Source: Wenjunlia tyrosinilytica
GTDB lineage: Bacteria > Actinomycetota > Actinomycetes > Streptomycetales > Streptomycetaceae
Direction of reading: 5' to 3'
DNA: 64,000 nucleotides
NCBI RefSeq assembly: GCF_014646055.1
Contig: NZ_BMMS01000027.1
Span: forward strand, 61,142 to 125,141
Part shown: positions 38,737 to 64,000 of the stretch, one piece after another
Position numbering within the stretch: position 1 is the first letter of the stretch
How the letters are laid out: the number at the start of each line of letters is the position of its first letter
Notes under the pieces: model-generated
Seen by the model: only the letters and a program-made list of their open reading frames with translations
What the model was told of the DNA's origin: nothing
Databases searched by the model: none
Made by a program: the position numbers and the translations under genes

Positions 38737-38927
38737 GGCGAGACCCCTTTGCGGCGGCTGGCTTGTTGGTTATTCATCAAACTAGCCGAAATCGATGCCT
38801 TCAAGGTGCGCGGACGCGGGCTCGCAGTGGGGCTTCACTGTGCCGCAGCCGGAGTTCACGGGGGCTTCAGTCGGCGCTTGTAGCGTTACGGGACACGAAA
38901 GCTGATTGTGAGAAGGGTAGTCCAGGG

Positions 38928-45451: not shown

Positions 45452-48400
45452 ACAATCAGCCCGCGGGCGACGACGGCGTTCAGCCCATCGCGGTCATCGG
45501 CATGGCTGGCCGCTTCCCGGGGGCGGCCGACCCGGAGGCGTTCTGGCGGAACATCGCAGCCGGAGTCGAGTCACTCGTCCGCCTCTCGGAGGACGACCTG
45601 ATCGCGGCCCGCGTCCCGGAGGAGCGGTACCGCGACCCACACTACGTGCGGGCCGCCACTGTGCTAGACGGCATGGACCGGTTCGACGCTGGGTACTTCG
45701 GCTTCACCCCGATGGAGGCGTCGATCCTCGACCCGCAGCACCGGCTGCTCCTCGAGTGCACTCAGGAGTTGTTCGACACAGCCGGGTACGACTCGTGCCG
45801 CCTGGATAAGACCACCGGTGTCTACGTCGGTGTCGGGTTCCCCTCGTACCTTGTCAACAACCTGTTGGCCCGCCCCGAGATCATCGAACAGGTCGGGATG
45901 CAGCGGATCTTCTTCGCCACCGATAAAGGGTTTGCGCCCACCAGGATCTCGCACAAGTTCGATCTGACCGGTCCGAGCATCGGTGTCGACACGGCGTGTT
46001 CAACCTCGCTCGTCGCGGTCCACCAGGCTTGCAGGGCGCTGCTGGCCTACGACTGCGACCTCGCGATCGCCGGTGGCGCCAGCTCGGTCTTGCCCAACGG
46101 CGTCGGTTACCAGTACCACGAGGGCGGCATCAGTTCTCTAGACGGGCACTGCCGGGCGTTTGACGCCCGTGCCGGGGGCACCCGGTTCGGCAGTGGCGTG
46201 GGGCTCGTCCTGCTCAAGCGGCTGGAGGACGCACTGGCCGACGGCGATCAGGTGCTCGCCGTGATCCGGGGTTCTGCGGTCAACAACGACGGGGCGTCGA
46301 AGGCGGGATTCACCGCGCCGAGCGCGACCGGCCAGGCCCTCGTCGTGGCGGAGGCCCTGGCCTTCGCCGAGGTGTCGCCGGATTCGGTCGGCTACGTCGA
46401 GGCCCACGGAACGGGGACCGTCATCGGTGACCCGATCGAGATCTCCGGTCTGACCCGGGCCTTCCGCAAGGGGACAGACCGACGGCAGTACTGCGCCATC
46501 GGGTCGGTCAAGACGAACGTCGGCCACCTCGATGTCGCGGCCGGCGTGAGCGGACTGATCAAGACCGTCCAGGCTCTGCGGCACGCGGAGCTGCCGCCCA
46601 GCCTGCATTGCGAGCAGCCCAACCCGGCGATCGACTTCGCGAGCAGCCCGTTCTACGTGAACACCGAGCTGCGCCCCTGGACGTCCTCCAGCGGTCCCCG
46701 GCGGGCCGGAGTGAGTTCGTTCGGGATCGGCGGCACGAACGCCCACGTGGTGCTGGAGGAGGCTCCCCCCCGGGGGGCTTCGGGGCCATCGCGCGCGGAG
46801 CATCTGGTGGTGGTCTCCGCCCGCTCGGCCGAGGCACTCGACCGCGCCCGGGCCGACCTCGCCGCCGCGTTCCGGAACGCAGTCGATGAGGCTCTGCCCG
46901 ATCTGGCCTTCACGCTCAGCGTCGGGCGGCGGGCGCACGCCCACCGTCAGGCCTTCGTCTGCCGCACCCGCGCGGAGGCGGTCGACCTGCTCGAAGGGGC
47001 CAGACCCTCAGCCGTCCGGTCGGGGATGCACACGGGGGATGCGCCGCGGATCGCGTTCCTCTTCCCCGGGCAGGGCGCCCAGCAAGTGCGGATGCTGGCC
47101 GACCTCCAACGCGGGGAGGAGGTCTTCCGGCGGGAGGTCGAGCGGTGCGCCATGCACGTCGAGAAACGTCTCGGCCTCGACATGTGCGAGGTGATCTACC
47201 CCGTTGGTCAGGGCGGCGACGCCCGTCTCGATGAGACATGGCTCACCCAACCCGCCCTGTTCGCGGTCTCATTGGCGACGGCCCGGCTCTGGCAGTCCTG
47301 GGGCGTCCAGCCGGACGTGCTGCTCGGACACAGTCTCGGTGAGTATGTCGCTGCGACGGTCGCTGAGGTCTTCGGCCCGGAGGACGCCCTGGACCTGGTG
47401 ATCGACCGGGCGCGCTTGATGAACGGTCTGCCCGCCGGGGCGATGACCGCGGTGTCGCTCGACGCGGCAGCGCTCGAACCGCTCCTCGGGCAGTGCTCTC
47501 TGGCGGCCGTCAATGCCCCTGGGCAGTGCGTCGCCTCGGGGCCGCTCGCGGCCGTCGAGGAGCTCGAGGCCCGGATGGCGGCCGCCGGCGTCGTGCACCG
47601 CAGGCTCCGCACCTCCCACGCGTTCCACTCGGCCATGCTGGACGAGGTCGCCGGAGCGTACCGGGAACGTGTGGCGCAGGCCCGGCCGGGTGTGCCGCGC
47701 ACACCGATCGTGTCGTGTCTGACGGGCCGCGTCCTGGAGCCCGGCGAGAGCTCCGATCCCGCGTACTGGGCCCGGCAGATGCGGGGCACGGTCAGGTTCG
47801 CCGAAGCGGTGCGGACCATCGCCGAGGACCCGCACCGCCTTTTCCTGGAAGTGGGGCCCGGCCGAACCCTGACCTCGATGGTGCGGAGGTCCGGCATCGC
47901 ACCCGAGCGCGCCCTCGCCTCGGCCCGGGGCGACGGCGACTCCCGGACAGACGGTGAGGCCCTGTTGGACGCGCTCGGCGCCCTCCACTGCGCCGGGGCT
48001 CCGGTTGCCTGGGAGCGGTTCTGGGCGGGCGAGCGGCGGCACCGCCTGCCGCTGCCGAGCTACCCCTTCGAGCGGCAGCGTCACTGGATCGACCCGAACC
48101 CGGCGGAGCGGCCCGCCCTCGAAATCCCGGCGGCGAGTCGGGACGGCGAGACTCTGTCCGCCCGTACCTGGCGCCCGGCCCCGCTCGATCCGGGTCCGTC
48201 CAAGCGGCCGGCCGGGGGCGACTGGCTGCTGCTGGTGGCGGACGACGCGCTCGGATGTGCGCTGGAGGCCCGCCTCGCCCAGCGCGGGGCGTCGGTGGTG
48301 CGGATCCGGCCGGGTGTCGAACTCGCCGAGACCGCTGAAGAGTTCGTCGTAGACCCGGCACGCCCGGACCTCGTCGAGCGCCTGCTCGAGGCACTTGAGG

Positions 48401-51400
48401 AGCGCGGTCGGACGCCGAGCGACGTCGTGCTGGCCTGCGACCGCGGGGCGGCCGAGAACGTCGATGCCGCCCAGCGCGCAGGGCTGGAGACCGCGGCGGT
48501 CTGGATCCGGGCCCTGGCCTCGCGGGCGACAGGTGAGCCCGTCCGGCTCGCTGTGGTGGCCGACCGGCTGGCCCGAGTCCTGCCGAGTGACGAACCGGCG
48601 ACCGCCATGGGGTCGCTGGTCGGCTTCTGCCGCGCGGCCGCCGAACACCCCGAGCTGGCGGTCGCCTGCATCGACATCGACGAGCCCAGCGCCGCGGAAG
48701 CCGCCGACGCCGTCCTCGCGGAGCTGACGGCTGGCCCGGCCGACGCCCTTGTCGCGTATCGGTCGGGCCGGCGCCACATCGAGTCGTACGAGCCGGTCGC
48801 TCGGGCCGAGGGCGGTGCGCGCGCGAGTGGGAGCTATCTCGTCACCGGCGGGTACGACGGCCTGTCCGCGATCCTCGCCCGCCGCCTCGCCGAACGGCAC
48901 GGCGCACGGCTCACCCTGGCCGGGCCGGAGCCGGTGCCGCCCAGGACCGAGTGGCCGGGCTGGTTCGGCGAAGACACCGGAGTGGAGTTGGCGCGCGGCG
49001 CGGCCGAGGCCGAGGCCGGCGTCGTCACGGGCGCCCTGCGCCACGATGTCGAGGCACTGTCGGACGTTGAGCGGGAGCTCGCCGCCGAGGCGGGCCCGGG
49101 GTTGCCGCTCGAGCTGGTCGGGGCGACCCTGAACCGGCTGTGCGGCAGCTACGTGCACGGCACGCTTCTCCGGGCAGGCGTCGACCTGACCGAGGGGCAG
49201 GTGTACAAGCGATCCGAGATCGCCCGGCGGATGCGAATCCTGCCGATCTTCGAGAAATTCCTCGACTTCTTCCTTGAGGTGCTCCACGAGGATGGGGTCA
49301 TCCGTCGGGAGGGCGACCGGATCGAGGTCCTGATCGGTCCGGAGGCCGTGCCCCCCGCTGACTCCGTCGCCGCCAGGGCGCTACTGCCGGGATTCGAAGC
49401 GACTATCGACTTCCTGGAACACTGCGTCGCCCACTACCCGGCGGCCCTCAGCGGCGACATCGACGCGATCGGGGTGCTCTTCCCAGAGGGAGACCCCAAG
49501 CCGCTGGAGGCAGCGTTCCGCCGGCTGTTGGACGGGAGCAACTTCGACGTCTACGCGGGGCTGCTGGGCCGCCTGCTCGCCCGGCTGCCCGAGGGCCGAC
49601 CGGGGCGGCCCCTCCGAATCCTCGAAGTCGGCGGTGGAAATGGACAGTTGACCCGGCTCATCGCCCCGATGCTGAGCGAGCGGGAGGTGGAGTACCGGTT
49701 CACCGATCTCGGCGGCTCGTTTGTCCGCCGGGCGCGGGAGGAACTGGCCGACCTGGGCTTCGGCGACCTGCGCTGCCAAATTTTGGACATCACGAAGGAC
49801 CCGGTCGCCCAAGGCTTCGAACCGTACTCGTTCGACGCAGTGATCGGCTTTGACGTCGTCCACGCCACCCGGCGGATCGACCGGACGTCGGAGAACCTGC
49901 GCGGGCTGCTCGCGCCCGGCGGACTGCTCTGCCTCGTCGAGGCGGTGGCCTCGCTGCGCTGGGTCGAGATGCTGTGGGGTCTGGCCGAGGGATGGTGGCT
50001 GTTCGAGGACCATGAGGTCAGGACAGGGTCGCCGCTGGTACCGCTGGACACCTGGGACCGAGTCCTCGGCGAACTGCCGTTCGCGGACACCGTGTCGTTC
50101 CCACGTGATCGGGCGGCCCGGGAAAGCACGTACTACGGACTGGTCCTCGCCCAGCAGCCCGAGGTATTCGACACCCCTGACCGTTCCGCAAAGCTGGCAC
50201 GCCGGGCCGAGGAGATCCTCCAGATCAACCGCACGCGTATCCAGGCCGTCCGCGATCTCGAGGCGGCCGGAGCGGAAGTCCTGCTGGTCCGGGTGGACCT
50301 GACCTCCCCCGTACAGGTGGCCGAGGCCGTCGCGACCGCCCGGACGCGCTTCGGCGCGCTGGACGGAGTCGTCCACGCTCCGGAGACGGTGGGCGGGGAG
50401 CCGGGCCAGGACTGGACCCCGGCGAGCCTGCGGGCCCTGGCTGCTGCCCACGGCCGGATGGCGCGGGCGGTCGAGGCGGCTGCCGCTGACACGGGCGTGG
50501 AGAGCGTCACGTATGTCTCGCTAGACGCCGCTCCCGGCGGCGGGGATGCTCTACGGGCCGCGACCGTGGCCGGACTGCTTGACGCGTTCGCCGCTTCCGG
50601 CGGTGCCGGCAGCCGGTCGGGGTCGATCCACTGGAACGGCGACGAGGAGCTCAACCAGCTGGACGACGCCATCGGCAGCTCGGGTGTGATCCACGTGTCG
50701 GCACAGAGCCCTGCGGCGGCACGAGCGGCGGGCACCGACCGGCAGCGAGCCTGGCTCGAGGCCCGTGGCACCCGCGGCGACCCGGCGGAGGACGTCGAGC
50801 GGGAGCTCCTGGTGATCTTCCAGCAGCTCTTCGGAATGGACGCGATCGGCCTCGATGACGACTTCTACCAACTCGGCGGCGACTCGCTGCTGGCCGTTCA
50901 GGTGGTGGCACGGGTGCGGCGGCGCTTCGGCGTGGACATCGCGGTCAAGGCGGTCCTCCAGGCTCCCACGGTCGCGAGGCTCGCTCAGCGGGTGCGCGCG
51001 ACGGGTCAGGGCGGCCAGCACACGGACACGCCCCTGCTGCGCGTTCCGCGGCACGATCTGATGCCGCTGTCGTTCGGTCAGGAGTCGCTGTGGCTCGCCG
51101 AGGAGCTCCACGGGCCGAGCGCGACGTACAACATCCCCGGCGCGGTGCGTCTGATCGGGAGGTTGGAGACCGGGGCGCTGCGGCGGTCCCTGCGCCAGGT
51201 CATCCAGCGGCACGAGGTGCTGCGCACCACCATCCACGCCGTGGACGGACTGCCGGGGCAGCGGGTGCACGACGAGCTGAACGTCGAGTTGCCCGTGCGA
51301 GACGTGCGCGAGGAGCAGATCAGCGACCTGGCCCAGGAGCACGCGCGGACGGTGTTCGATCTCACGTCCGGGCCGCTGATCCGGGTGACCCTGCTCCGGG

Positions 51401-53418
51401 TCGGCCCCGAGGACCACGTGCTTCTGGTGAACATCCACCACATCGTGTCCGACGGCTGGTCACTCGGCGTGCTGGTGGAGGAACTCGTCACCTTGTACTC
51501 GGCATTCGTCCGCGGCGGACCGTCGCCGCTCGAACGACTGGATCACCAGTACGTGGACTTCGCGCAGTGGCAGCGCCGCTGGCTGGAGGGCGAGGTCTTC
51601 GACCGGCAACTCGCCTTCTGGCGGCGCAAGCTCGCCGGAGCGCCGTCGCTACTGGAGCTGCCGACCGATCGGCCGCGCCCCGAGATCCAACGGATCCACA
51701 ACGCGGTCCGGAAGTTCGTGGTCCCTCCTGAGGTCTCGGCGGACCTCGTGGCGCTCGGCAGGGCCGAGGGGGCGACCCTCTTCATGGTGCTGCTCGCCGC
51801 GTTCAAGGTCTTGCTCGCCCGCTACTCCGAGCGGACCGACATCATCGTCGGAACGACGAGCGCCAACAGGACCCGCGCCGTCTTCGAGCAGATGATCGGC
51901 ATGTTCGTGAACAACCTGGCACTGCGGACCGACCTGTCCGGGAACCCGACGTTCCGTGAACTCCTGGCCCGGGTCCGTGACACGGCAGTGGACGCCTACG
52001 CACACCAGGACCTGCCGTTCCGGACTCTCGTGGACGAGCTGCGTCAGGATCGGAGTACGGCCGTCACACCGGTGTTTCAGGTTCTCTTCCTGCTGCAGAA
52101 GCTGAACATCACCCTGGAACTGCCGGGGATCACCGCGCACACGCTCGAAGTTGACGCGCTCCACACCAAGTTCGACCTGACCCTGTTCATGGAGGAGCAA
52201 GAGAACGGGATCGAAGGCACCTTCATCTACAACGCGGAGCTCTTCGACGAGCCGACCGTCGAGCGCATGGCGGCACACCTCCGGCGGCTCCTGGTGAGCG
52301 CGGTGGCCGCGCCGGACATCCGAATCGAATCACTGCGGATGGCGACCGATGACGAGGAGAGAGTGCGTCACATGGCCGAGGCGAGCGCGAAGACGTCGAT
52401 GCTCCAGTCGCTGCATAGCGCGAAGCGGCGCTCGGTGGAGATCGCCGGGATCAACCCAGTCACCACCGGATTCCTGCCGGGACTGCCCGATACGCCGCTC
52501 GTCGTGGAGCCGGCCGTCGTGCGCGCCGACCTGCCAGGCTGGCTGCGGTCACACCGCGGGGTCGTCGATTCCCAATTGCACCGGCACGGTGCGCTGCTGT
52601 TTCGCGGCTTCCACGGCGGCTCGGTCGAGAAGTTCGAGGAAGTGGCGCACGCGATCTGCGCGACACTCTACCGGGAGTACGGGGACCTGCCGAGGGAGGG
52701 CGACTCGGTACAGGTCTACAAGTCGACTCCGTACCCCAGCGACCGATCGATTCTCTTCCACAACGAGAGTTCCCACCTCAGCAGCTGGCCGATGCGGCAG
52801 CTGTTCTCCTGCATCGTCGCACCGCAGGACGGCGGGGAGACCCCGGTCGTCGACTGCCGGAAGGTCTACGCTGGCCTCCGGCCCGAGCTGATCGAGATGT
52901 TCCGGCGTAGGAGGCTGCGTTACGTCCGCAACTTCATCGAGTCGGTCGATGTGAGCTGGTCCCAGTTCTACGGGACGGATGATCGCGCGTTCGTGGAGCG
53001 TAAGTGCCGCGAGGAGGGCACCGGTTTCGAGTGGGCCCTGGACGGGACGCTGAGGACCTGGCGGGTCGCCGACGCGGTCGTCCGGCACCCGCGAACCGGG
53101 GAGATGGTGTTCTTCAACCAACTGGCTCTCCATCACGCCTCGTGTCTCGACCCCGACACCCGTCGGTCCCTGGGCGCCCTCTACGGCGAGCAGGGCATGC
53201 CGCGCAACGTCTACTGGGGTGACGGCTCCCTCATCGAGGACGAGGTGGTCGCCGAGGTCCGGGAGTTGATGGATCGTGAGGCGATCACCTTCCGCTGGCA
53301 GGAGGGCGACGTGCTGGTCATCGACAACATGCTCGTCGCGCATTCGCGGCTGCCCTTCGTCGGTCCGCGGAAGATCGTCGTGGCCCTCGGCGACATGATG
53401 GAAGCGGAGACCCACTGA
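45448..53418 (+). CDS. Hybrid PKS-NRPS: KS-AT-KR(MT)-ACP-C-TauD
   Basis: 2656 residues. KS (about 10-440) has Cys184 in DTACSTSL and both catalytic His motifs (EAHGTGT, KTNVGHLD). AT (about 530-820) has Ser629 in GHSLGEY and HAFHS near 724, which favours malonyl-CoA. A ketoreductase follows (structural half about 920-1120, SYLVTGGYDG near 1129), with a methyltransferase inserted (about 1190-1560; ILEVGGGNGQ at 1391). The KR catalytic YAAAN motif is missing, so the keto group should stay. ACP Ser1813 (LGGDSLLAV) leads to a C domain with HHIVSDG at 1997-2003. The last 340 residues are a TauD-type Fe(II)/2-oxoglutarate hydroxylase with H2438-x-E2440, H2632 and R2641. The partner A domain is in the next protein. 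Confidence 0.93.
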   Translation: MNNQPAGDDGVQPIAVIGMAGRFPGAADPEAFWRNIAAGVESLVRLSEDDLIAARVPEERYRDPHYVRAATVLDGMDRFDAGYFGFTPMEASILDPQHRLLLECTQELFDTAGYDSCRLDKTTGVYVGVGFPSYLVNNLLARPEIIEQVGMQRIFFATDKGFAPTRISHKFDLTGPSIGVDTACSTSLVAVHQACRALLAYDCDLAIAGGASSVLPNGVGYQYHEGGISSLDGHCRAFDARAGGTRFGSGVGLVLLKRLEDALADGDQVLAVIRGSAVNNDGASKAGFTAPSATGQALVVAEALAFAEVSPDSVGYVEAHGTGTVIGDPIEISGLTRAFRKGTDRRQYCAIGSVKTNVGHLDVAAGVSGLIKTVQALRHAELPPSLHCEQPNPAIDFASSPFYVNTELRPWTSSSGPRRAGVSSFGIGGTNAHVVLEEAPPRGASGPSRAEHLVVVSARSAEALDRARADLAAAFRNAVDEALPDLAFTLSVGRRAHAHRQAFVCRTRAEAVDLLEGARPSAVRSGMHTGDAPRIAFLFPGQGAQQVRMLADLQRGEEVFRREVERCAMHVEKRLGLDMCEVIYPVGQGGDARLDETWLTQPALFAVSLATARLWQSWGVQPDVLLGHSLGEYVAATVAEVFGPEDALDLVIDRARLMNGLPAGAMTAVSLDAAALEPLLGQCSLAAVNAPGQCVASGPLAAVEELEARMAAAGVVHRRLRTSHAFHSAMLDEVAGAYRERVAQARPGVPRTPIVSCLTGRVLEPGESSDPAYWARQMRGTVRFAEAVRTIAEDPHRLFLEVGPGRTLTSMVRRSGIAPERALASARGDGDSRTDGEALLDALGALHCAGAPVAWERFWAGERRHRLPLPSYPFERQRHWIDPNPAERPALEIPAASRDGETLSARTWRPAPLDPGPSKRPAGGDWLLLVADDALGCALEARLAQRGASVVRIRPGVELAETAEEFVVDPARPDLVERLLEALEERGRTPSDVVLACDRGAAENVDAAQRAGLETAAVWIRALASRATGEPVRLAVVADRLARVLPSDEPATAMGSLVGFCRAAAEHPELAVACIDIDEPSAAEAADAVLAELTAGPADALVAYRSGRRHIESYEPVARAEGGARASGSYLVTGGYDGLSAILARRLAERHGARLTLAGPEPVPPRTEWPGWFGEDTGVELARGAAEAEAGVVTGALRHDVEALSDVERELAAEAGPGLPLELVGATLNRLCGSYVHGTLLRAGVDLTEGQVYKRSEIARRMRILPIFEKFLDFFLEVLHEDGVIRREGDRIEVLIGPEAVPPADSVAARALLPGFEATIDFLEHCVAHYPAALSGDIDAIGVLFPEGDPKPLEAAFRRLLDGSNFDVYAGLLGRLLARLPEGRPGRPLRILEVGGGNGQLTRLIAPMLSEREVEYRFTDLGGSFVRRAREELADLGFGDLRCQILDITKDPVAQGFEPYSFDAVIGFDVVHATRRIDRTSENLRGLLAPGGLLCLVEAVASLRWVEMLWGLAEGWWLFEDHEVRTGSPLVPLDTWDRVLGELPFADTVSFPRDRAARESTYYGLVLAQQPEVFDTPDRSAKLARRAEEILQINRTRIQAVRDLEAAGAEVLLVRVDLTSPVQVAEAVATARTRFGALDGVVHAPETVGGEPGQDWTPASLRALAAAHGRMARAVEAAAADTGVESVTYVSLDAAPGGGDALRAATVAGLLDAFAASGGAGSRSGSIHWNGDEELNQLDDAIGSSGVIHVSAQSPAAARAAGTDRQRAWLEARGTRGDPAEDVERELLVIFQQLFGMDAIGLDDDFYQLGGDSLLAVQVVARVRRRFGVDIAVKAVLQAPTVARLAQRVRATGQGGQHTDTPLLRVPRHDLMPLSFGQESLWLAEELHGPSATYNIPGAVRLIGRLETGALRRSLRQVIQRHEVLRTTIHAVDGLPGQRVHDELNVELPVRDVREEQISDLAQEHARTVFDLTSGPLIRVTLLRVGPEDHVLLVNIHHIVSDGWSLGVLVEELVTLYSAFVRGGPSPLERLDHQYVDFAQWQRRWLEGEVFDRQLAFWRRKLAGAPSLLELPTDRPRPEIQRIHNAVRKFVVPPEVSADLVALGRAEGATLFMVLLAAFKVLLARYSERTDIIVGTTSANRTRAVFEQMIGMFVNNLALRTDLSGNPTFRELLARVRDTAVDAYAHQDLPFRTLVDELRQDRSTAVTPVFQVLFLLQKLNITLELPGITAHTLEVDALHTKFDLTLFMEEQENGIEGTFIYNAELFDEPTVERMAAHLRRLLVSAVAAPDIRIESLRMATDDEERVRHMAEASAKTSMLQSLHSAKRRSVEIAGINPVTTGFLPGLPDTPLVVEPAVVRADLPGWLRSHRGVVDSQLHRHGALLFRGFHGGSVEKFEEVAHAICATLYREYGDLPREGDSVQVYKSTPYPSDRSILFHNESSHLSSWPMRQLFSCIVAPQDGGETPVVDCRKVYAGLRPELIEMFRRRRLRYVRNFIESVDVSWSQFYGTDDRAFVERKCREEGTGFEWALDGTLRTWRVADAVVRHPRTGEMVFFNQLALHHASCLDPDTRRSLGALYGEQGMPRNVYWGDGSLIEDEVVAEVRELMDREAITFRWQEGDVLVIDNMLVAHSRLPFVGPRKIVVALGDMMEAETH

Positions 53419-53420
53419 CG

Positions 53421-56400
53421 ATGAACGACGCCGGTTTCCGTCTTTCCCCGCAGCAGGCCCACACCTGGCAGCACGTCCCCAAGGGGTGGGCGCAGTGCCG
53501 AATCTCCTTGGAAGGGCCGTCGGCCGCCGACGATGTCGCCCGCGCCGTGCGGGACGTCGTGCGCCGCCACGAGTCGCTGCGTGCCCGCCTCGCTACGGTC
53601 CCCGGTATCGCCGTCCCGCTCCAGACGGTAGACGAGGAAACAGAGTTGGCGTGGGTCGAGGACGTCCTCCCAGGGGACGCCGCGGCAGCTGCGGCCGCGG
53701 TCGAACAAGCGGCCGCCGAGGACCGTACCCGCCCGCTCGGTGGTGCCATGCGGGCGCGGCTGCTGTCGGGCACGGACCACGCCGAGCTCGTGCTGACTGC
53801 GCCCGGCGTCTTCCTCGACCGCAGGTCGTTCGTGTCGGTCTTCGAGGAGCTCGCGGCTCGACTCGGCGGGTCGGCGGAGGACGACGAGCCGCTCCAGTAC
53901 CTCGACGCGGCGGAGTGGCTCCACGAGCAGGCCGCGACCGCCGACGCGAGGAACCGGATGGCGGCCTGGAACCGGCACGAGCTCGCCGCCGCGCGGGTGC
54001 TCCCAACGCCGTTCGAGGGCGGTACGGCCGACGGCGTGGGCGTGGTCCAAGTGCCGTCAGACCCGCCGTGGGCCCAGGCCACCGAGCGGGTGGCAGCGGA
54101 ACTCGGCTGCTCGCTAGGAGCGCTAGTCCTGGGCGCCTGGCAGCTGCTGCTGTGGCGGCTCACCGCGGCGGAGCGCCTGGTGACCGGGTTCGTCCCCACC
54201 ACCCGAGGTCTGGACGAACTCGACGCGGTGGTCGGCAACTTCGCAAGCCCGGTCCCGGTGCTCAGTGCGATGGAACCGGGGATGTCCTTCGAAGCCCTGG
54301 TGGCCCGGCTGGACCGGGCGATGGGCGAGGCGTCGACCGCGCAGTTCTCCTTCGACGGCACGGCGGCGGAGGGAACGGCCCCGTTCGGTTACTCCTTCTG
54401 CGAACTGCCGGCAGAAGCAAGCGCGGGGCGGCTCCGGCTGGCCCTGCGGTCGGTGGCCACGGCGCCCGTGGGCGCAACACTCCACCTCGACGCCGCTTGC
54501 ACGCCCGACGGTTGGCTCGACCTGCGAATCCTGCACGACACCCGGCTCGTCTCGGAACGTCACGCGGCAAGACTCGCTGGACAGTTCGGCTCCGTCCTCC
54601 GTTCCGTCACGGAGACCCCCCGGGCATTGATCGGTGACCTCGCCCTGGCTGACCAGGACGAGACCGCCCGTGTCCTCGGCGCGGGCACCGGGCCCCTCGT
54701 GGAACGGTCCCTCCTGCGACTCGCCCACGCCCGCTTCGAGCGGTGCGCCGACGAGCGGCCCGAGCGCCTCGCGGTGGTCTGCGGTGGGCAGCGGCTGACC
54801 TACGGCGAGGTCGAGGCACGGGCGAACCGGCTCGCGCACGCCCTCCGCTCGGCCCGGGTCGGCCCGGATGTCCCGGTGGCCCTGATGGTGGAGCGCTCGG
54901 TTGACTACGTCGTCGGACTGCTCGCCGTGCTCAAGGCCGGCGGCGCGTTCGTCCCGATCGATCCTGGACTTCCGGCCGAGCGAATAGCGCAGACGCTCGC
55001 CGAAGTCCGCCCGGCGGTGGCCATCACACACCGCGGTCTCACCGGGTTCGTGGCGGCGGCGGGAGTTCGGGTGCTCGACCTGGACGACGCCGCCGCGCTC
55101 GCCGCCTGGCCCGCCACCCGTGCGGCCGCGACTGTGCACCCAGAGAACCTCGCGTACGTCATCTTCACCTCCGGCTCGACCGACCGCCCGAAGGGCGTGG
55201 CCATGCCGCACCGCGCGATCTGCGGCTATGTCGAAGGCGTGCTACCGGAGTTCTGCCTCGGAGAGGACGCAGTGCTGGCCAGCCTGGCGACGCCAGCGGC
55301 CGACCTCGGCCACACCGCGGTGTTCGGCGCACTCTGCACCGGCCGCTCGCTGCTGCTCGCCGCACCCGAGGAGGTACTGGCCAGCGACCTGCTCGCGCGT
55401 CGGTTCCGAGAGCAGCCGGTCGACCTGCTGAAGATCGTCCCCTCGCACCTGGCAGCGCTGCTCGGGGCCCAGGACGCGGCCGACCTGCTGCCCCGGTCCT
55501 GCCTGGTGCTGGGCGGCGAGGAGCTGACCGCGCCGCTGGTCGAGCAAGTCCGCAGGCTGCGGCCGGGCCTGCGGGTGATCGACCACTATGGCCCGACGGA
55601 GACGGCGGTCGGAGCGCTGGTCTCGACAGTCGCCGACCGGCTCTCGGGCCCCATCCCGATCGGCACCCCGCTGCCGAACTACCGCGCGTGGATCCTCGAC
55701 GCGCGGCTGCGGCCGGTTCTGCAAGGCGCTCCGGGTGAGCTGTACATCGCCGGTGATGGCGTCGCCCGGGGCTACTGGGAGCAGCCGGGCCGGACGGCGG
55801 AACGCTTCCTGCCCGATCCGTTCGCCGTCGAGCCCGGGTCGGTCATGTACCGCACCGGCGACCTAGCGCGCCAGCGGCCCGACGGCGCCGTGGTGTTCCT
55901 CGGGCGCGCCGACGACCAGGTGAAGATCCGCGGCAACCGGGTGGAGCTCGGCGACATCGAGACGGTGCTCCGCCGTGACAAACGGCTCGCCGATGCCGCC
56001 GTGGTCGCCCGGGACGACGGCGCGGGCATGCACCTCGTGGCATATGTGGCGCCCCGCCGCGGCACGTTCGTGCAGGGCCCCGAACTGGCGGAGGAACTCC
56101 GGTGCCAGCTGCCGGAGTACATGGTCCCCGGCGCGATCGTCGCACTCCAGGCACTGCCGCTGACACCGAACGGCAAGCTGGACCGGTCGGCGCTTCCGGC
56201 CCCGGATCCGTCCGCCTCGCGCACGGCCCCGTACGTCGCGCCGCGGACCGGGACGGAGACCCTGCTCGCGGAGGTGTGGGAGGACATCCTCGGCTGCGGA
56301 AAGGTCGGTTCTCGTGACGACTTCTTCCGTGAGCTCGGCGGGAACTCCCTGGACGCCACTCGGGCGGTCGCCCGGGTGAGGGCGGCGACCGGTGTCGCGC

Positions 56401-59400
56401 TCCAGGTGAGCGCGCTATTCGAGGCACCCACTGTGGCCGCACTGGCCGAGCAGGTGGAGGCAGGGCGCGCGGCCGCGAGCGTGGGCGGCGCCAGCGACGC
56501 GATCACGCCGGTCGACCGGACCGGCCCTCTACCGCTGTCGTACGCGCAGCGCCGGATCTGGATGCTTTCCCAGGTCGATGGTGCGAACACCGCCTACAAT
56601 ATCCCGGCCGCCATCCGCATCGGCGGGCCTCTGGACATCGACGTGCTGGTGCGAGCGCTAGGCGAGGTGGTGGCCCGGCACGAGGCGCTGCGCACCAACT
56701 TCGTCCAGGTGGACGGTGTCCCGGCGCAGGTGGTGAGGGAGGCGGCGCCGATCGAGGTGCCGATGGTGGATATCCGCGCGACGGACGTGGCGGCACGGGC
56801 GCAGGCGCACGCATCCCGGCCGTTCGACCTGGAGCGGGACGAGCTGTTCCGGGCCGCGGTCCTGCGGGTCTCGGCGGAGGAGCACGTCTTGCTGCTCTGC
56901 CTCCACCACATCGTGTCCGACGGCTGGTCGACCACAGTGCTCTGGCAGGAGATCGCGAGCCTCTACACGAACTTCCGCGCCGGCCAAGAGTCACCGCTCA
57001 AGCCGCTGCCGAGCCAGTACGCCGACTTCGCGGCGTGGCAGAACCGCTGGCTGGACAGCCCGGAGATCGCCCCTCAGCTCACCTACTGGACGCGGCAACT
57101 CGACGGCCTGCCAGCACTGTTGGAGCTGCCAACAGACCGGCCCCGGCCTTCGCTGCAGGGCGGCGAAGGGGCGACGCTGGCGATCACCGTCCCCTCGGAG
57201 ACCGTCCTCGCGCTGCGCGGACTGTCCGTCGAGCAGCGGGCGACGATGTTCATGGTGATGCTCACAGCGTTCAACGTGCTGCTCGCCCGGTACACCGGGC
57301 AGCACGACATCGCGGTCGGTACGCCCGTCGCCAACCGGACGCGTGCGGAGGCCGAGGGGCTCATCGGGTGCTTCTTCAACACCCTCGTGATCAGGACTGA
57401 CCTGTCCGACGACCCCACCTTCTCCGACTTGCTCGGCCGGGTCCGGGACGTGGTGATCGCCGCGCTGGCGCACCAGGACTTGCCGTTCGAGCGCCTCGTC
57501 GAGGTTCTCAACCCCGCCCGCAGCCCCGCGCACACGCCACTTTTCCAGACCCTTTTCGTCTACCAGCCCGCGCCGGCCGGCGGGGCCGCCATGGACGGAT
57601 TGAGGGTCGAGCGGCTGGCCCTGCCTGGCACCGTCGCCAAGTACGACCTGACCCTCGACCTCGTCGAGGACGAGGACGGCGTCCGCGGGCGCATCGAGTA
57701 CCGCACTGATCTCTTCGACTGCGGCACGATCGAGCGGATGGCCGGGCACTTCACCAGGCTGCTCGACGCGATCGTCCGCGACCCGATGAGCCGCGTCGCC
57801 GAGCTTGACCTGCTGACCGGGGCCGAGCGGGAGCTGGTGCTTGCGGAGTGGAACAGCGAGCACCGGGCGCAGGCCGACGGGCTGCCGGTGGCGGACGCGT
57901 TCGAGGAACGGGTCCGGTCGTGCCCCGACGCCACGGCTCTGGTCTTCGGTGACCGCTCGCTCACCTACCGCGAGCTGGACCGGGCGGCGAACCGGCTGGC
58001 TTGCCGGCTTCGCGCGAAGGGGGTCTCCGAGAACGTGCTGGTCGGCCTCTGGACGGAGCGCTCGATCGAGCTGGTCGTCGCCATGCTCGCCGTGCTCAAG
58101 GCCGGCGGCGCCTATGTCCCGCTCGACCCGGCCGCGCCGACCGCGCGGGTCGCCGTCTTGGTTGAGGACGCCCGGATCGGACTGGTGATCGCCCCGACGG
58201 CCCGGGCGGCGGAGCTGCCGCCGGGGGTCGACGTGGTCGCCCCGGAGGTGGGTCCGTCGGAGGAGGTGGAGCCGGCGATGAGGACGACCGGTCCGGAGAG
58301 CCTCGCGTACGTCATCTACACCTCGGGATCAACCGGCCGGCCCAAGGGTGTCATGGTCGCCCAGCGGAACCTGGTCTCCTTCTTCGCCGCGATAGACAGC
58401 CGACTGGACAACCCGACGCCGGGCACCTGGCTCGCCCTGACCCACCACACCTTCGACATCTCGGTCCTTGAGCTGCTGTGGACGCTCACCCGGGGCTTCA
58501 AGGTGGTGCTGGTCGGCGACGAACTGGTGCTCAGCGCGCCGCCGCGGCCAGCGGGCACCCGGCCCGTCGACTTCAGCCTGTTCTACTTCGCGAGCGATGC
58601 TGGCGAGCGCGGAACGGACAAGTACCGACTGCTGCTGGAGGGCGCTCAATGGGCCGACGAGCACGGTTTCGCCGCCGTGTGGACACCGGAGCGGCACTTC
58701 GGCGCCTTCGGGGGGCTCTACCCGAACCCGGGCATCACCGCCGCGGCACTTGCGGCCTCGACCACCCGAATCGGCATCCGCACTGGCAGTCTCGTCCTCC
58801 CGCTCCACAACCCGATCCGGGTCGCCGAGGACTGGGCGGTGATCGACAACCTGTCCAACGGACGGGTTGGTCTTTCGATCGCCTCGGGCTGGCAGCCGCA
58901 CGACTTCGCGCTTGCGCCGCACAACTTCGCCGATCGCAAGGAGGTCATGTTCCGTGACCTCGAGGTGGTGCGGAGCCTTTGGCGAGGAGAGGCGGTCCGG
59001 GCGATCTCCGGCACCGGTGAGGAGATCGAGGTCCGGACGCTGCCGCGGCCGGTGCAGCCCGAGCTGTCGGTATGGGTCACCGCGGCCGGCAACCCGGAGA
59101 CCTTCCGCCGTGCCGGAACGGTCGGCGCGAATGTGCTCACCCATCTGCTGGGCCAGTCGGTCGAGGAGATGGCCGGTGCGCTCGAGGTCTACCGGGCCGC
59201 CTGGAGCGCCTCAGGGCGCCCCGGACGCGGGCATGTCACCTTGATGCTGCACACCTTCGTCTCGGACGACGAGGAATACGTGCGGCGGACCGTGCGTGAG
59301 CCGTTCAAGAACTACCTCCGTCAGTCGGCGGACCTCGTGCGGCCCGTCGCCCGTGATCGCGGGCTTGATGTCGAAGGACTTGACCAGAGCGATCTCGACG

Positions 59401-62123
59401 CGCTGCTCGACCACGCGTATGACCGCTACTTCGGCAGCAGCGGCCTCTTCGGCACGCCGCGAGGGTGCGCCGCGACGGTCGACCGGGTGCAGGCCGCTGG
59501 CGTGGACGAGATCGCCTGTCTCGTGGACTTCGGGGTGGCCGAGGACGAGGTGCTGGCGAGCCTCGAGCACCTGGACGAGCTCCGCCGGATCACCTCCGCG
59601 GGCACGACCGCGGAACCTCGGGTAGACATCGCTGGACTGATCGAGCAGCACTCCGTCTCGCACCTCCAGTGCACCCCGTCGCTGGCGGCGCTGCTCGCCG
59701 CCGACGTGGACGCGCGGGCGGCCCTGCGGCGGCTCGACTGGCTGCTCGTCGGTGGTGAGGCGCTCCCGCATCTGCTGGCAGAGAAGCTCTCCGCCGCGGT
59801 CGATGGCCGGGTGCTCAACGTCTACGGCCCGACCGAGGCCACGATCTGGTCCACCAGCCACCTGGTATCCGGTGCGGACAACTCGATCGGACGTCCCCTT
59901 AGCAACACCCGGACGTACGTCCTCGACGAGCGGTGCCGACCGGTGCCGGTCGGCGTGCCTGGCGAACTGTGCATCGGCGGGGACGGTGTGGCAGTCGGCT
60001 ACCTGCACCGGCCTGAGCTCACCGCCGAGCGCTTCGTCACCGACCCCTACGCATCGGACCCAGCGGCCAGGATGTACCGCACCGGCGATATTGTCCGCCA
60101 CCGCCCGGGCGGTGAACTCGAGTTCATCGGCCGGCGGGACCACCAAGTGAAGATCCACGGGTTCCGGGTAGAACTCGGCGAGATCGAGGCGGCGCTCGGC
60201 AGCGCCCCGGGCGTGCAGGCCGGGGCCGTTGTTGCGGACGACGACGGGCGAGGTGGCAAGCGGCTCGTCGCCCACGTCGTCATGTTCGGGCCGTTCCAGG
60301 CCGCGGACCTACGCCGCCACTTGGAGGAGCAGCTTCCTCGGCACATGGTGCCCGCTCGTATCGTCGAGTTGGAATCGATGCCGCTGCTGCCGAGCGGCAA
60401 GGTGGACCGTAGCGCGCTCCCGGGGGTCGCCGCTGACCAGCCGACGAACGGTGAGGCGATCGCCCCGAGCACCCCGACCGAGCGCGAACTCGCGAGGATC
60501 TGGGCCGAACTTCTCAAGCAGCCGACGATCGGCGCGCACGACAACTTCTTCGAGCTCGGCGGCGACTCCATCATCGCGATCCAGCTGGTCGCGCGGGCCA
60601 GGCACGTCGGGCTGACGATCTCGGCGCGCGACCTGTTCCGGCACCAGACGCTCACCGAACTCGCGGCGGTGGCCCGGGAGGGCACCACGACCCACGCCGA
60701 GCAGGACCTGGTCCTCGGCGAGGGCGGTCTGGCACCCATCCAGCACTGGTTCTTCGAGCAGGAGCTCGCTGACCCTCACCACTACAACCAGGCCATCCTG
60801 GTGGACGTCACCAGCGGGCGGCTGGACCTCGGGTCGCTCGCCTGCGCTCGCGACGCCCTACTGCGGCACCACGACAGCTTGCGCAATCGGTTCGTCCATG
60901 GCGCCGACGGTTGGCGGCAGTGGACCGGCGCCCCCGAGCCCGTCCCCGACCCCGTCGACTGCCTCGACCTGACGGACCTGCCGCCCGCGGCCTGGCCCGA
61001 GGCCGTCGCCACGATGCAGCGGGACGCCCACGGCGCCCTGGATCTCGTGGACGGCCCAATGTTGCGCATGGTCTACCTCGACTTCGGCGCGCAGCGCGCG
61101 GACCAGCTGTTCGTGGTGGCCCACCACACGGTCGTCGACGGTATCTCCTGGCGCATTCTCATGGAGGACCTCCAGACCGCCTACGAGGCAGAGCGTCAGG
61201 GCCGCGGTGCCCGGCTGCCGCTCAAGACGACCTCGTACCAGGAGTGGGTCTGCCGGCTCACCGCCGACGCCGACTCGGCGCGGACCCGTGCGGAACTCGA
61301 CTACTGGGCCGATCAGATCGAGCCGCCGACAGCCGCGCTGCCACGCGACCGCGCCGGGGAAAACACCGAGGGAACCGTTCGGAGGGTCCGCGCGGAGTTC
61401 ACCGCCGATGAGACCATCGCGCTCGTCCGGGACCTTCCGGCAGGACACCGGATCGGAGTACCCGAGCTGCTGCTCACCGCGCTGGCCGACGCGTGCGCGC
61501 CATGGACCGGCTCGCGCTCGCTGCTCGTCGACGTGGAGGGTCACGGCCGGGAAGAACTCTTCGACGACATCGATGTGTCCCGCACCGTCGGGTGGTTCAG
61601 CGCGATCTATCCGCTCCGGATCACTCTGGCCGTACCGGGGGAGGACAGCCTGCGGGCCGTCCGGGAACAGATCCGCGCCGTCCCGCGCAGCGGGGTGGGC
61701 TTCGGCTTGCTGCGCCACCTCTCGCCAGACGAGTCGGTACGGGCGCGCCTGAGGGACGGACGCCGTGCGGAGCTCGTCTTCAACTACCTGGGCCAAGCCG
61801 ACGCCTCGCTGCTGCCTGACTCGATATTCCAGCTGTCCGGTGATCCGGTCGGTGCGCCGCACGGCCCCGCGCAGCGGCGTCGGCATCTCGTCAACGTCAA
61901 TGGGATCGTGGTGGACGGCCGACTCCGCGTCGACTTCGCGTACAGCCAGGCGGTGCACGATCCGACGACCGTCGAGGCGCTCGTGGCCCGATTTACCGCC
62001 GCGACGCGCGAGCTGCTTGGCGAGTGCCTCACCGGGGGCGTCCGGTTCGTGCCGTCCGACTTCCCGGACATCGATCTCACGCAGGGGGAGCTCGAAGAGC
62101 TCCTCACGGAACTTGAGAGCTAG
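53421..62123 (+). CDS. NRPS: condensation-like-A(Asp)-PCP-C-A[LLM](Gly-like)-PCP-E
   Basis: 2900 residues. The N-terminal 430 are condensation-like, but the HHxxxDG site reads APGVFLD (about 127-133), so it cannot catalyse normally and may be an interface domain for the TauD hydroxylase. A1 code D628 L629 T632 K671 V696 G698 H722 V730 G731 (DLTKVGHVG) is an aspartate code. PCP1 Ser976. C domain HHIVSDG from 1162. A2 is split after FDISVLELLW (1678-1687) by a second LLM (about 1715-2055). Its code D1679 I1680 L1683 Q2083 L2109 G2111 V2134 I2142 W2143 (DILQLGVIW) is glycine-like. PCP2 Ser2383 sits in LGGDSIIAIQ, the form common before E domains. A C-terminal epimerisation domain (about 2430-2890) has HHTVVDGISW at 2568. 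Confidence 0.93.
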   Translation: MNDAGFRLSPQQAHTWQHVPKGWAQCRISLEGPSAADDVARAVRDVVRRHESLRARLATVPGIAVPLQTVDEETELAWVEDVLPGDAAAAAAAVEQAAAEDRTRPLGGAMRARLLSGTDHAELVLTAPGVFLDRRSFVSVFEELAARLGGSAEDDEPLQYLDAAEWLHEQAATADARNRMAAWNRHELAAARVLPTPFEGGTADGVGVVQVPSDPPWAQATERVAAELGCSLGALVLGAWQLLLWRLTAAERLVTGFVPTTRGLDELDAVVGNFASPVPVLSAMEPGMSFEALVARLDRAMGEASTAQFSFDGTAAEGTAPFGYSFCELPAEASAGRLRLALRSVATAPVGATLHLDAACTPDGWLDLRILHDTRLVSERHAARLAGQFGSVLRSVTETPRALIGDLALADQDETARVLGAGTGPLVERSLLRLAHARFERCADERPERLAVVCGGQRLTYGEVEARANRLAHALRSARVGPDVPVALMVERSVDYVVGLLAVLKAGGAFVPIDPGLPAERIAQTLAEVRPAVAITHRGLTGFVAAAGVRVLDLDDAAALAAWPATRAAATVHPENLAYVIFTSGSTDRPKGVAMPHRAICGYVEGVLPEFCLGEDAVLASLATPAADLGHTAVFGALCTGRSLLLAAPEEVLASDLLARRFREQPVDLLKIVPSHLAALLGAQDAADLLPRSCLVLGGEELTAPLVEQVRRLRPGLRVIDHYGPTETAVGALVSTVADRLSGPIPIGTPLPNYRAWILDARLRPVLQGAPGELYIAGDGVARGYWEQPGRTAERFLPDPFAVEPGSVMYRTGDLARQRPDGAVVFLGRADDQVKIRGNRVELGDIETVLRRDKRLADAAVVARDDGAGMHLVAYVAPRRGTFVQGPELAEELRCQLPEYMVPGAIVALQALPLTPNGKLDRSALPAPDPSASRTAPYVAPRTGTETLLAEVWEDILGCGKVGSRDDFFRELGGNSLDATRAVARVRAATGVALQVSALFEAPTVAALAEQVEAGRAAASVGGASDAITPVDRTGPLPLSYAQRRIWMLSQVDGANTAYNIPAAIRIGGPLDIDVLVRALGEVVARHEALRTNFVQVDGVPAQVVREAAPIEVPMVDIRATDVAARAQAHASRPFDLERDELFRAAVLRVSAEEHVLLLCLHHIVSDGWSTTVLWQEIASLYTNFRAGQESPLKPLPSQYADFAAWQNRWLDSPEIAPQLTYWTRQLDGLPALLELPTDRPRPSLQGGEGATLAITVPSETVLALRGLSVEQRATMFMVMLTAFNVLLARYTGQHDIAVGTPVANRTRAEAEGLIGCFFNTLVIRTDLSDDPTFSDLLGRVRDVVIAALAHQDLPFERLVEVLNPARSPAHTPLFQTLFVYQPAPAGGAAMDGLRVERLALPGTVAKYDLTLDLVEDEDGVRGRIEYRTDLFDCGTIERMAGHFTRLLDAIVRDPMSRVAELDLLTGAERELVLAEWNSEHRAQADGLPVADAFEERVRSCPDATALVFGDRSLTYRELDRAANRLACRLRAKGVSENVLVGLWTERSIELVVAMLAVLKAGGAYVPLDPAAPTARVAVLVEDARIGLVIAPTARAAELPPGVDVVAPEVGPSEEVEPAMRTTGPESLAYVIYTSGSTGRPKGVMVAQRNLVSFFAAIDSRLDNPTPGTWLALTHHTFDISVLELLWTLTRGFKVVLVGDELVLSAPPRPAGTRPVDFSLFYFASDAGERGTDKYRLLLEGAQWADEHGFAAVWTPERHFGAFGGLYPNPGITAAALAASTTRIGIRTGSLVLPLHNPIRVAEDWAVIDNLSNGRVGLSIASGWQPHDFALAPHNFADRKEVMFRDLEVVRSLWRGEAVRAISGTGEEIEVRTLPRPVQPELSVWVTAAGNPETFRRAGTVGANVLTHLLGQSVEEMAGALEVYRAAWSASGRPGRGHVTLMLHTFVSDDEEYVRRTVREPFKNYLRQSADLVRPVARDRGLDVEGLDQSDLDALLDHAYDRYFGSSGLFGTPRGCAATVDRVQAAGVDEIACLVDFGVAEDEVLASLEHLDELRRITSAGTTAEPRVDIAGLIEQHSVSHLQCTPSLAALLAADVDARAALRRLDWLLVGGEALPHLLAEKLSAAVDGRVLNVYGPTEATIWSTSHLVSGADNSIGRPLSNTRTYVLDERCRPVPVGVPGELCIGGDGVAVGYLHRPELTAERFVTDPYASDPAARMYRTGDIVRHRPGGELEFIGRRDHQVKIHGFRVELGEIEAALGSAPGVQAGAVVADDDGRGGKRLVAHVVMFGPFQAADLRRHLEEQLPRHMVPARIVELESMPLLPSGKVDRSALPGVAADQPTNGEAIAPSTPTERELARIWAELLKQPTIGAHDNFFELGGDSIIAIQLVARARHVGLTISARDLFRHQTLTELAAVAREGTTTHAEQDLVLGEGGLAPIQHWFFEQELADPHHYNQAILVDVTSGRLDLGSLACARDALLRHHDSLRNRFVHGADGWRQWTGAPEPVPDPVDCLDLTDLPPAAWPEAVATMQRDAHGALDLVDGPMLRMVYLDFGAQRADQLFVVAHHTVVDGISWRILMEDLQTAYEAERQGRGARLPLKTTSYQEWVCRLTADADSARTRAELDYWADQIEPPTAALPRDRAGENTEGTVRRVRAEFTADETIALVRDLPAGHRIGVPELLLTALADACAPWTGSRSLLVDVEGHGREELFDDIDVSRTVGWFSAIYPLRITLAVPGEDSLRAVREQIRAVPRSGVGFGLLRHLSPDESVRARLRDGRRAELVFNYLGQADASLLPDSIFQLSGDPVGAPHGPAQRRRHLVNVNGIVVDGRLRVDFAYSQAVHDPTTVEALVARFTAATRELLGECLTGGVRFVPSDFPDIDLTQGELEELLTELES

Positions 62124-62138
62124 GAACGATCGACCCAT

Positions 62139-64000
62139 ATGAACGAGAAGACCGACATCGAGGCCATCTACCCTCTGTCACAGCTCCAGCACGCTATGCT
62201 GCTCAAGTCGCAGCTCGCGCCCAACAGCGGTGTGTACATCGTCCAGCTGTCGTTCGACATCTGCGGTCCGCTTGACCTGAAGGCCTTCCGGGCGGCCTGG
62301 AACGAGCTGACCGCGCGGCACGCCGTACACCGGACGCTGTTCGCACGCCTCGACCAGAGCCAGCCGCTCCAAGTGGTACGGCGCAGCGTGGAGCTCCCGT
62401 GGACAGAGGAGGACTGGTCGGCGCTGTCGGCCCCGGAGCAGGACGCGCGCTTCGACGCCTGGTTCGCGGACGACCGCACCAGGGACTTCGACCCCGCCCA
62501 GGCTCCGCTGATGCGATGTTTCCTGGCCCGGCTCGCGGACCACCGGCACCGGTTCTGCTGGACCCGCCACCACGCGATCTCCGACGGCTGGTCGATGGCC
62601 AACGTCGCAGCCGAGGTCCTCCAGGACTACCGTGACCGGACCGTCGGCACCCCGTTCACGTTCGGCCCGGTCCCGCAGTACCGCGAGTACATCGCCTGGT
62701 CCCGGGCCCAGAACGTCGACCGGGCCGAGGAGTTCTGGCGGCGGTCGCTCGCAGGCGTCCAGGGGCCGACGCTTCTCGGGGTCGACCGGTCGCCGCAAAC
62801 CGGCTACCTGGCGCCCGGCCGCATCGACAGGCGGCGCGTGCTGCTCTCACCGGAGAGCACGCGGGCCGTCTCCGCCGCGGCCCGGCGCGAGCGGTTGACC
62901 CCCGGCACCTTCGTCCAAGGTGCATGGGCGATCCTGCTCCGCCGCTATGGGGACGAACGGGATGTCATGCTGGGCGTGGCGGCTTCGGGCCGGCCGCCGG
63001 TGATCGGCGGCGTGGAGAAGATGATCGGCTGCTTCGTTAACACACTCCCGGTCCGCATCGAGGTCGACGATGACGCGATGGCGATCGACTGGCTGCGGCA
63101 GCTGCAGGCGGCCCAGGTCGAGCGTGAGGAGTACGGCTATGTCTCTCTCGCCCAGATCCGTCGTTGGACCGGCGTCCGAGGCGATGTCCCGCTGTTCGAG
63201 TCGCTCCTCGCCTTCGAGAACTTCCCGATCGGGGAGGTGCTCGAGGCCGTCGGCGGGCCGATCCGGGTCGAGGCGATCCGGATGTCCGAGCAGACCAGCT
63301 TCCCGCTCACGCTCACGGTCGCCCCCGGTGACCAGCTGTCGATCCAACTCGCCTTCGACGAAAGTCGGTTTGACGAGGCTGCGATCGAGGGCATGCTTGA
63401 CCACTACGCGGTGATCCTCCAGGCGCTGACCGGGGCTCCGGGCCGGATCCGCGACCTGCCGATCGCGGGGCCCGAAGAACTCGGACGACTGCTCGGCGAC
63501 TTCAATGCGGCCAGGGTCGAGATACCTGACCTGCCGGCGCACCGGCTCTTCGAGGCCCAGGCGGCGAGCACGCCCGGTTCCGTCGCCCTCGTCGCAGGGC
63601 GGACCGAGCTGACCTACGCCGAGCTGAACGCCCGGGCCGATCGGCTCGCCCGACGGCTGCGCGGCGCGGGGGTCACCCCGGGAGCGCTGGTCGGCGTTTG
63701 TCTCGAACGGGACGCCGAGCTCCCTGTGGCCCTGCTCGCGGCGTGGAAGGCTGGCGCGGCCTACCTCCCGCTTGATCCCGCGTATCCGCCGTCCAGGCTG
63801 GACCAGATCCTCGGCGACGCGGCGCCGGCGGCGGTGCTGGCACAGCAGTCGACCCATGGCGCGCTGGCTGGCTCGTCGTCGAACACGCTGCTGATTGACC
63901 GTTCGGACAGCGAGGCGGACGACGCCGAGGACGCTGGCCCTGCCTCCGCGGAGGTCCACGAGGAGTCGGTGGCCATCGTCATCTACACCTCGGGTTCGAC
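62139..64000 (+). CDS. NRPS: C-A..., cut by window end
   Basis: The open frame starts at ATG 62139, 15 bp after the previous stop, and runs past the end (620 residues seen). The N-terminus IEAIYPLSQLQHAMLLKSQL lacks a docking extension. The condensation domain has HHAISDG starting near residue 144, followed by YGDERDVMLGVAASGRPP and MIGCFVNTLPVRI. Because an E domain comes just before, a DCL-type C is expected. An adenylation domain begins about residue 465 (LTYAELNARADRLARRL, YLPLDPAYPPSRL), and the window ends in core motif A3 (YTSGS). The specificity residues, any carrier domain and chain release lie outside. No thioesterase is seen in the window. Confidence 0.92.
   Translation, partial: MNEKTDIEAIYPLSQLQHAMLLKSQLAPNSGVYIVQLSFDICGPLDLKAFRAAWNELTARHAVHRTLFARLDQSQPLQVVRRSVELPWTEEDWSALSAPEQDARFDAWFADDRTRDFDPAQAPLMRCFLARLADHRHRFCWTRHHAISDGWSMANVAAEVLQDYRDRTVGTPFTFGPVPQYREYIAWSRAQNVDRAEEFWRRSLAGVQGPTLLGVDRSPQTGYLAPGRIDRRRVLLSPESTRAVSAAARRERLTPGTFVQGAWAILLRRYGDERDVMLGVAASGRPPVIGGVEKMIGCFVNTLPVRIEVDDDAMAIDWLRQLQAAQVEREEYGYVSLAQIRRWTGVRGDVPLFESLLAFENFPIGEVLEAVGGPIRVEAIRMSEQTSFPLTLTVAPGDQLSIQLAFDESRFDEAAIEGMLDHYAVILQALTGAPGRIRDLPIAGPEELGRLLGDFNAARVEIPDLPAHRLFEAQAASTPGSVALVAGRTELTYAELNARADRLARRLRGAGVTPGALVGVCLERDAELPVALLAAWKAGAAYLPLDPAYPPSRLDQILGDAAPAAVLAQQSTHGALAGSSSNTLLIDRSDSEADDAEDAGPASAEVHEESVAIVIYTSGS

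Follow-up and report, generated by a model that had tools for sequence, protein, structure and literature searches.

An epimerisation domain behind a glycine-code module

Glycine is achiral, and the question raised by this locus is what an epimerisation (E) domain does at the end of a nonribosomal peptide synthetase (NRPS) module whose A domain carries a glycine code. The preliminary description of the window, by which we mean the whole 64,000-nucleotide stretch of Wenjunlia tyrosinilytica DNA analysed here, had picked out the terminal module of a 2900-residue NRPS as combining a glycine-like code, an embedded luciferase-like monooxygenase (LLM) and a full E domain, and domain and motif searches agree with it on all three.

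The open reading frame (53421..62123, 2900 aa; forward strand, as for every feature of the window described below) has the layout C*-A(Asp-like)-PCP-C-A[LLM]-PCP-E. Pfam and NCBIfam searches return three Condensation-family stretches, corresponding to two C domains and the E domain, as well as AMP-binding and two carrier domains, so that the last module reads C-A[LLM]-PCP-E. Its C domain (56529..57836) has an intact HHIVSDGWS and groups with post-PCP (LCL-side) C domains. The A domain that follows is in two parts: an N-terminal part (57888..58568) with A3 and A4 and the code residues D, I and L, and a C-terminal part (59598..60410) with A5 to A10 and the code residues Q, L, G, V, I and W; motifs A3, A4, A5, A7, A8 and A10 could all be located in the module, counted from about 57888. 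Between the two parts, after A4 (58452) and before A5 (59817), lies the complete FMN-dependent LLM (58572..59585), which matches TIGR04020 over residues 1718-2055 of the NRPS (499.6 bits against a cut-off of 244.45; E = 4e-150) and Bac_luciferase over residues 1719-2030. Next come a carrier domain (60468..60680) with the E-type motif DNFFELGGDSI at 60540-60572, and the E domain itself (60714..62120). The following protein (62139..64000 in the window; 1063 aa, complete in L009:140-3331) is a C-A-PCP protein, and its C domain is the expected acceptor.

Substrate code and embedded oxygenase

The preliminary description left two options for the pairing of a glycine code with an E domain, one being that the A domain in fact selects another residue. 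Re-extraction by alignment again gives DILQLGVIW for the last module, and the pattern DI(L/V)QxGxxW is present in all 113 A[LLM] modules for which a code could be scored. An LLM together with a glycine code is thus the rule across the A[LLM] family, not a peculiarity of this NRPS, in agreement with the published assignment of glycine to the modules of myxothiazol, melithiazol and solanimycin (PMC10204066) and to published A[LLM] members (PMC11342130). Because all scored members share this code, selection of another, unusual residue must now be considered unlikely.

Nor do the data support a dead oxygenase: the window LLM retains 71 of 72 family-conserved columns. In the 110 modules where the distance was taken, the LLM begins 31-51 residues past the A4 motif. 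The closest solved structure is the monooxygenase domain of PuwE from the puwainaphycin line (PDB 6ket; 391 bits over the whole domain), which belongs to the same TIGR04020 family. Unlike the window LLM, the PuwE domain lies outside any A domain and takes a polyketide-derived acyl chain as substrate; that chain is hydroxylated at C-2, adjoining the thioester (PMC4219810).

The E domain, its carrier and the downstream C domain

Is the E domain itself intact? The preliminary description had named the loss of catalytic residues beyond HHxxxDG as evidence that would tell against a role for it, and we find no such loss. The motifs HHTVVDG (61122-61142), EGHGRE (61533-61556), VGWFSAIYP (VGWF, 61587-61613), PRSGVGFG and FNYLGQ (61779-61796) are all in place, and the domain aligns end to end with the solved E domains of PvdL (E-value about 1e-99), gramicidin S synthase 1 and tyrocidine synthase. 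These share full-length homology and all motifs with it, but the substrates known for them are ordinary aminoacyl or peptidyl thioesters, not alpha-hydroxyglycine. Among columns with at least 93% conservation across 46 other E domains, the window E retains 42 of 45, among them the two His, the Asp and the residues of EGHGR and FNYxG, which argues against a dead E domain.

The neighbours of the E domain are of the kinds that accompany epimerisation. A GGDS carrier is found in all five A[LLM]-E modules of our sample and in 83/83 ordinary E modules (55/55 plus 28/28), but in only 4/106 A[LLM] modules that have no E domain. A phylogeny of the next C domain, suggested in the preliminary description, places the C domain of the protein from 62139 on the post-E (DCL) side with an SH-aLRT support of 97; in this tree of 96 C domains, that side holds 38/38 post-E but just 1/25 post-PCP C domains. 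The branch leading to the degenerate first C domain of the NRPS (53421-54695) is very long, and the position of this domain in the tree was left out of use. Three features of the sequence, the intact E domain, the GGDS carrier and the post-E C domain downstream, say that the epimerisation step is real, with catalysis as a prediction.

Recurrence of A[LLM]-PCP-E in other genomes

The preliminary description also proposed a search of other genomes for the same architecture and for the codes that go with it. Our sample combined the TIGR04020 matches of about 1550 genome searches covering several classes with 80 loci drawn from GTDB species genomes and with eight plasmid regions. It yielded 131 distinct LLM domains that sit inside an A domain, and a carrier was detected for 120 of these. 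What follows the carrier is most often the end of the protein (91 modules), otherwise another region (14, TE-like where read), a C domain (9), a KS (1) or an E domain (5). The A[LLM]-PCP-E architecture of the window is real and well formed, and rare. The other four cases are one Shewanella (L083, L143) and three Nostocaceae (Komarekiella, L062/L137; L298; L300), so that the arrangement recurs in three phyla, that of the window and two others, though five cases are a small number and the three Nostocaceae are closely related. The eight plasmid regions contributed no additional A[LLM]-PCP-E.

In all three Nostocaceae the contig ends inside the E domain; the dN/dS values of these E domains, 0.29-0.38, come from just 61 available codons, too few to decide. 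The Shewanella E domain is internal, with a C domain in the same chain, and likewise retains 42 of the 45 conserved columns. As a test for a live E domain, dN/dS failed in this case because the PCP-E is an exact copy of the one in a neighbouring module: a block of 2520 bp, running from the end of A through PCP and E up to where the next C begins (L142-L144), matches its counterpart in a Ser-type module of the cluster at every position. The identity may reflect gene conversion, recent duplication or copying, or an assembly artefact. The C domains behind the two identical blocks are just 69% identical to each other, and for this reason both have probably long been positioned behind an E domain.

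The control set consisted of the E domains with the highest similarity to that of the window, together with their upstream modules, from Actinomycete-like relatives, Myxococcia and Cyanobacteria. Since these were picked by similarity and include near-copies, the count is descriptive and carries no statistical test: the canonical glycine code is absent from about 76 readable A-PCP-E modules without an LLM, one of which (L349) has the code DIVQFVAVW. Wherever an E domain follows a glycine code in this sample, the module has an LLM too.

Some further features of the A[LLM] family came to light in the survey. Strong TIGR04020 matches are numerous in Myxococcia, with up to nine per genome above the limit used. 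In a betaproteobacterium (L035:7349-12286), formyltransferase, A[LLM] and PCP form a single protein with a glycine code, and open reading frames of 1500-1650 aa with a similar layout occur in many phyla, the N-terminus having been read in L035 only. Two LLM-bearing A domains carry an FkbM-type methyltransferase inserted later in the domain (L322:7738-8700 and L328:7696-8502), which hints that the hydroxyl of alpha-hydroxyglycine can be retained and O-methylated.

A predicted route to (R)-alpha-hydroxyglycine

What, then, might the E domain act upon? On the strength of domain content and order, we think it likely that glycine is loaded, alpha-hydroxylated on the carrier and inverted by the E domain, so that the next C domain receives (R)-alpha-hydroxyglycine. 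We infer glycine as substrate, a hydroxylation, an order of steps, an inversion and an (R) product as follows. The A domain would load glycine and the C domain of the module would join it to the growing chain. After condensation, the embedded flavin monooxygenase would hydroxylate the glycine, by then N-acylated and still bound to the carrier, at its alpha carbon, thus creating a stereocentre; we place hydroxylation after condensation because the product of the reverse order would be an unstable free hemiaminal. The E domain would then take the alpha proton off and put it back on the opposite face, so that the alpha-hydroxyglycine, expected to be L-like and (S) at first, would become D-like and (R) (under CIP rules, L-like hydroxyglycine is (S) and D-like is (R)); it would then pass to the DCL-type C domain of the protein that follows (62139 onward). 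The product is accordingly predicted to contain an internal (R)-alpha-hydroxyglycine.

We hold this prediction of the overall function of the module with moderate confidence. The other option of the preliminary description, that the E domain sets the configuration of an oxidised glycine, is supported by its context (intact E and LLM domains, a GGDS carrier, a DCL C domain, occurrence in three phyla), with the chemistry as a prediction. There are also alternatives beyond those two options, namely a recombinational relic, a role in docking, and other alpha-carbon chemistry by the E domain.

The main rival is that the A[LLM] replaced an ordinary A domain through a crossover before the carrier, leaving the old PCP-E-C(DCL) tail in place, with an E domain that is now idle or equilibrates the residue without effect on the product. 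Since PCP-E and DCL travel together in all E modules seen, one crossover would bring the GGDS, E and DCL signals at once, and the three could be an old co-inherited unit that does not act on this residue; the 2520-bp block shared by LLM and Ser-type modules in Shewanella indicates that such exchange occurs. Against this stand the full conservation of the window E and the recurrence of E, glycine code and LLM together in three phyla. Moreover, a relic should arise just as easily behind a glycine code without an LLM, and this combination is absent from the roughly 76 control modules. We therefore consider a relic rather unlikely, if the most serious of the competing explanations.

The window E ends its protein, and the next open reading frame opens with a short N-terminal stretch before its C domain, as might be expected if the E domain were kept for a C-terminal docking region that passes the chain on, not for chemistry. 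Retention for docking only does not fit Shewanella, where the E domain is internal and the C domain lies in the same chain, and the catalytic residues of the window E are intact, making this account improbable. It is similarly hard to credit that the true substrate of the A domain is a chiral amino acid, contrary to its code, and that the E domain acts on it in the normal way: A-domain codes are predictions, but the glycine code is uniform among scored A[LLM] modules, and glycine is the residue assigned to published members (PMC10204066; PMC11342130). A different kind of chemistry might also be envisaged, with the base of the E domain acting on alpha-hydroxyglycine to give an N-acyl-imine, or an amide and a glyoxylyl thioester, with no inversion. 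Alpha-hydroxyglycine is prone to such reactions, and the myxothiazol and melithiazol lines cleave it (PMC10204066); the window E is nevertheless an ordinary E domain by sequence and is followed by a DCL C domain and another module, not by a thioesterase, and of these explanations elimination or cleavage seems to us very improbable. A variant in which the base of the E domain also drives the loss of water, the resulting N-acyl-imine being trapped by a neighbouring nucleophile to give a D-like alpha-substituted glycine, is a long shot. If it were true, A[LLM]-PCP-E would be a type of module devoted to new chemistry at the alpha carbon.

Gene cluster and comparison with known systems

The assembly line to which the module belongs is predicted to start with a fatty-acyl-AMP-ligase-like (FAAL-like) protein with a carrier domain (38763..40940). 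The next gene (40964..45451) encodes TubC_N-C-A[LLM]-PCP, with the code DILQLGMVW and a GGHS carrier, has no E domain and is followed by a PKS; it provides an internal contrast to the module studied here. The PKS-NRPS of the same line (45448..53418) reads KS-AT-MT-KR-ACP-C-TauD. Just beyond the window (L009:3334-6285), a class V aminotransferase and a thioesterase follow, and then a further KS that is cut off after its start where the contig ends.

At the junction with the 2900-residue NRPS (51050-56465), C-TauD ends one protein, and a degenerate C domain without HHxxxDG opens the next together with an Asp-like A domain, whose code reads DLTKLGHVG by eye from the translation. By analogy, this C-TauD / C*-A-PCP stretch resembles the arrangement for beta-hydroxy-aspartate units in lipid siderophores, such as the start of the potashchelin line, FAAL-ACP-C-TauD-C-A(Asp)-PCP (PMC7100376). 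The local product sequence is predicted to be beta-hydroxy-Asp followed by (R)-hydroxy-Gly.

How does the module compare with known systems? MtaG and MelG of myxothiazol and melithiazol share with it a glycine-code A domain and a monooxygenase between A4 and A5, and are known to alpha-hydroxylate carrier-bound glycine (PMC10204066), which for the window module is a prediction. They terminate with a thioesterase, and cleavage of their hydroxyglycine leaves a terminal amide; the window module is internal, with E next and then another C-A-PCP protein, which has a DCL C domain. SolF of solanimycin also pairs a glycine-code A domain with a flavin monooxygenase, and its alpha-hydroxyglycine stays inside the chain, being retained in solanimycin B (PMC10204066). 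In SolF the monooxygenase lies between A8 and A9 and no E domain is described, whereas the window LLM is in the A4-A5 position and an E domain is present. Retention as in solanimycin B fits the window better than myxothiazol-like cleavage, because the module is internal and cleavage would mean an early end of the chain. Skyllamycin and epoxinnamide likewise contain an internal alpha-hydroxyglycine, as predicted here, but it is made by stand-alone hydroxylases (Sky39, EpcG), is assigned as (S), and no epimerisation is invoked for it (PMC9321520).

Implications

Alpha-hydroxylation of glycine by A[LLM] modules is already known; what appears to be new is its pairing with an E domain. We found no publication linking an E domain to a glycine module or to hydroxyglycine, which, our coverage of the literature being partial, is weak evidence of novelty. 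If the proposed route is correct, NRPS lines would set the configuration of alpha-hydroxyglycine in two stages, an oxidation followed by an inversion, and the scope of E domains would widen to a carbinolamide carbon. Genome miners could predict (R)-hydroxyglycine, a residue missed by standard Marfey analysis, from A[LLM]-PCP-E, and the E domain would flag those modules that retain hydroxyglycine in the chain as opposed to those that cleave it to an amide.
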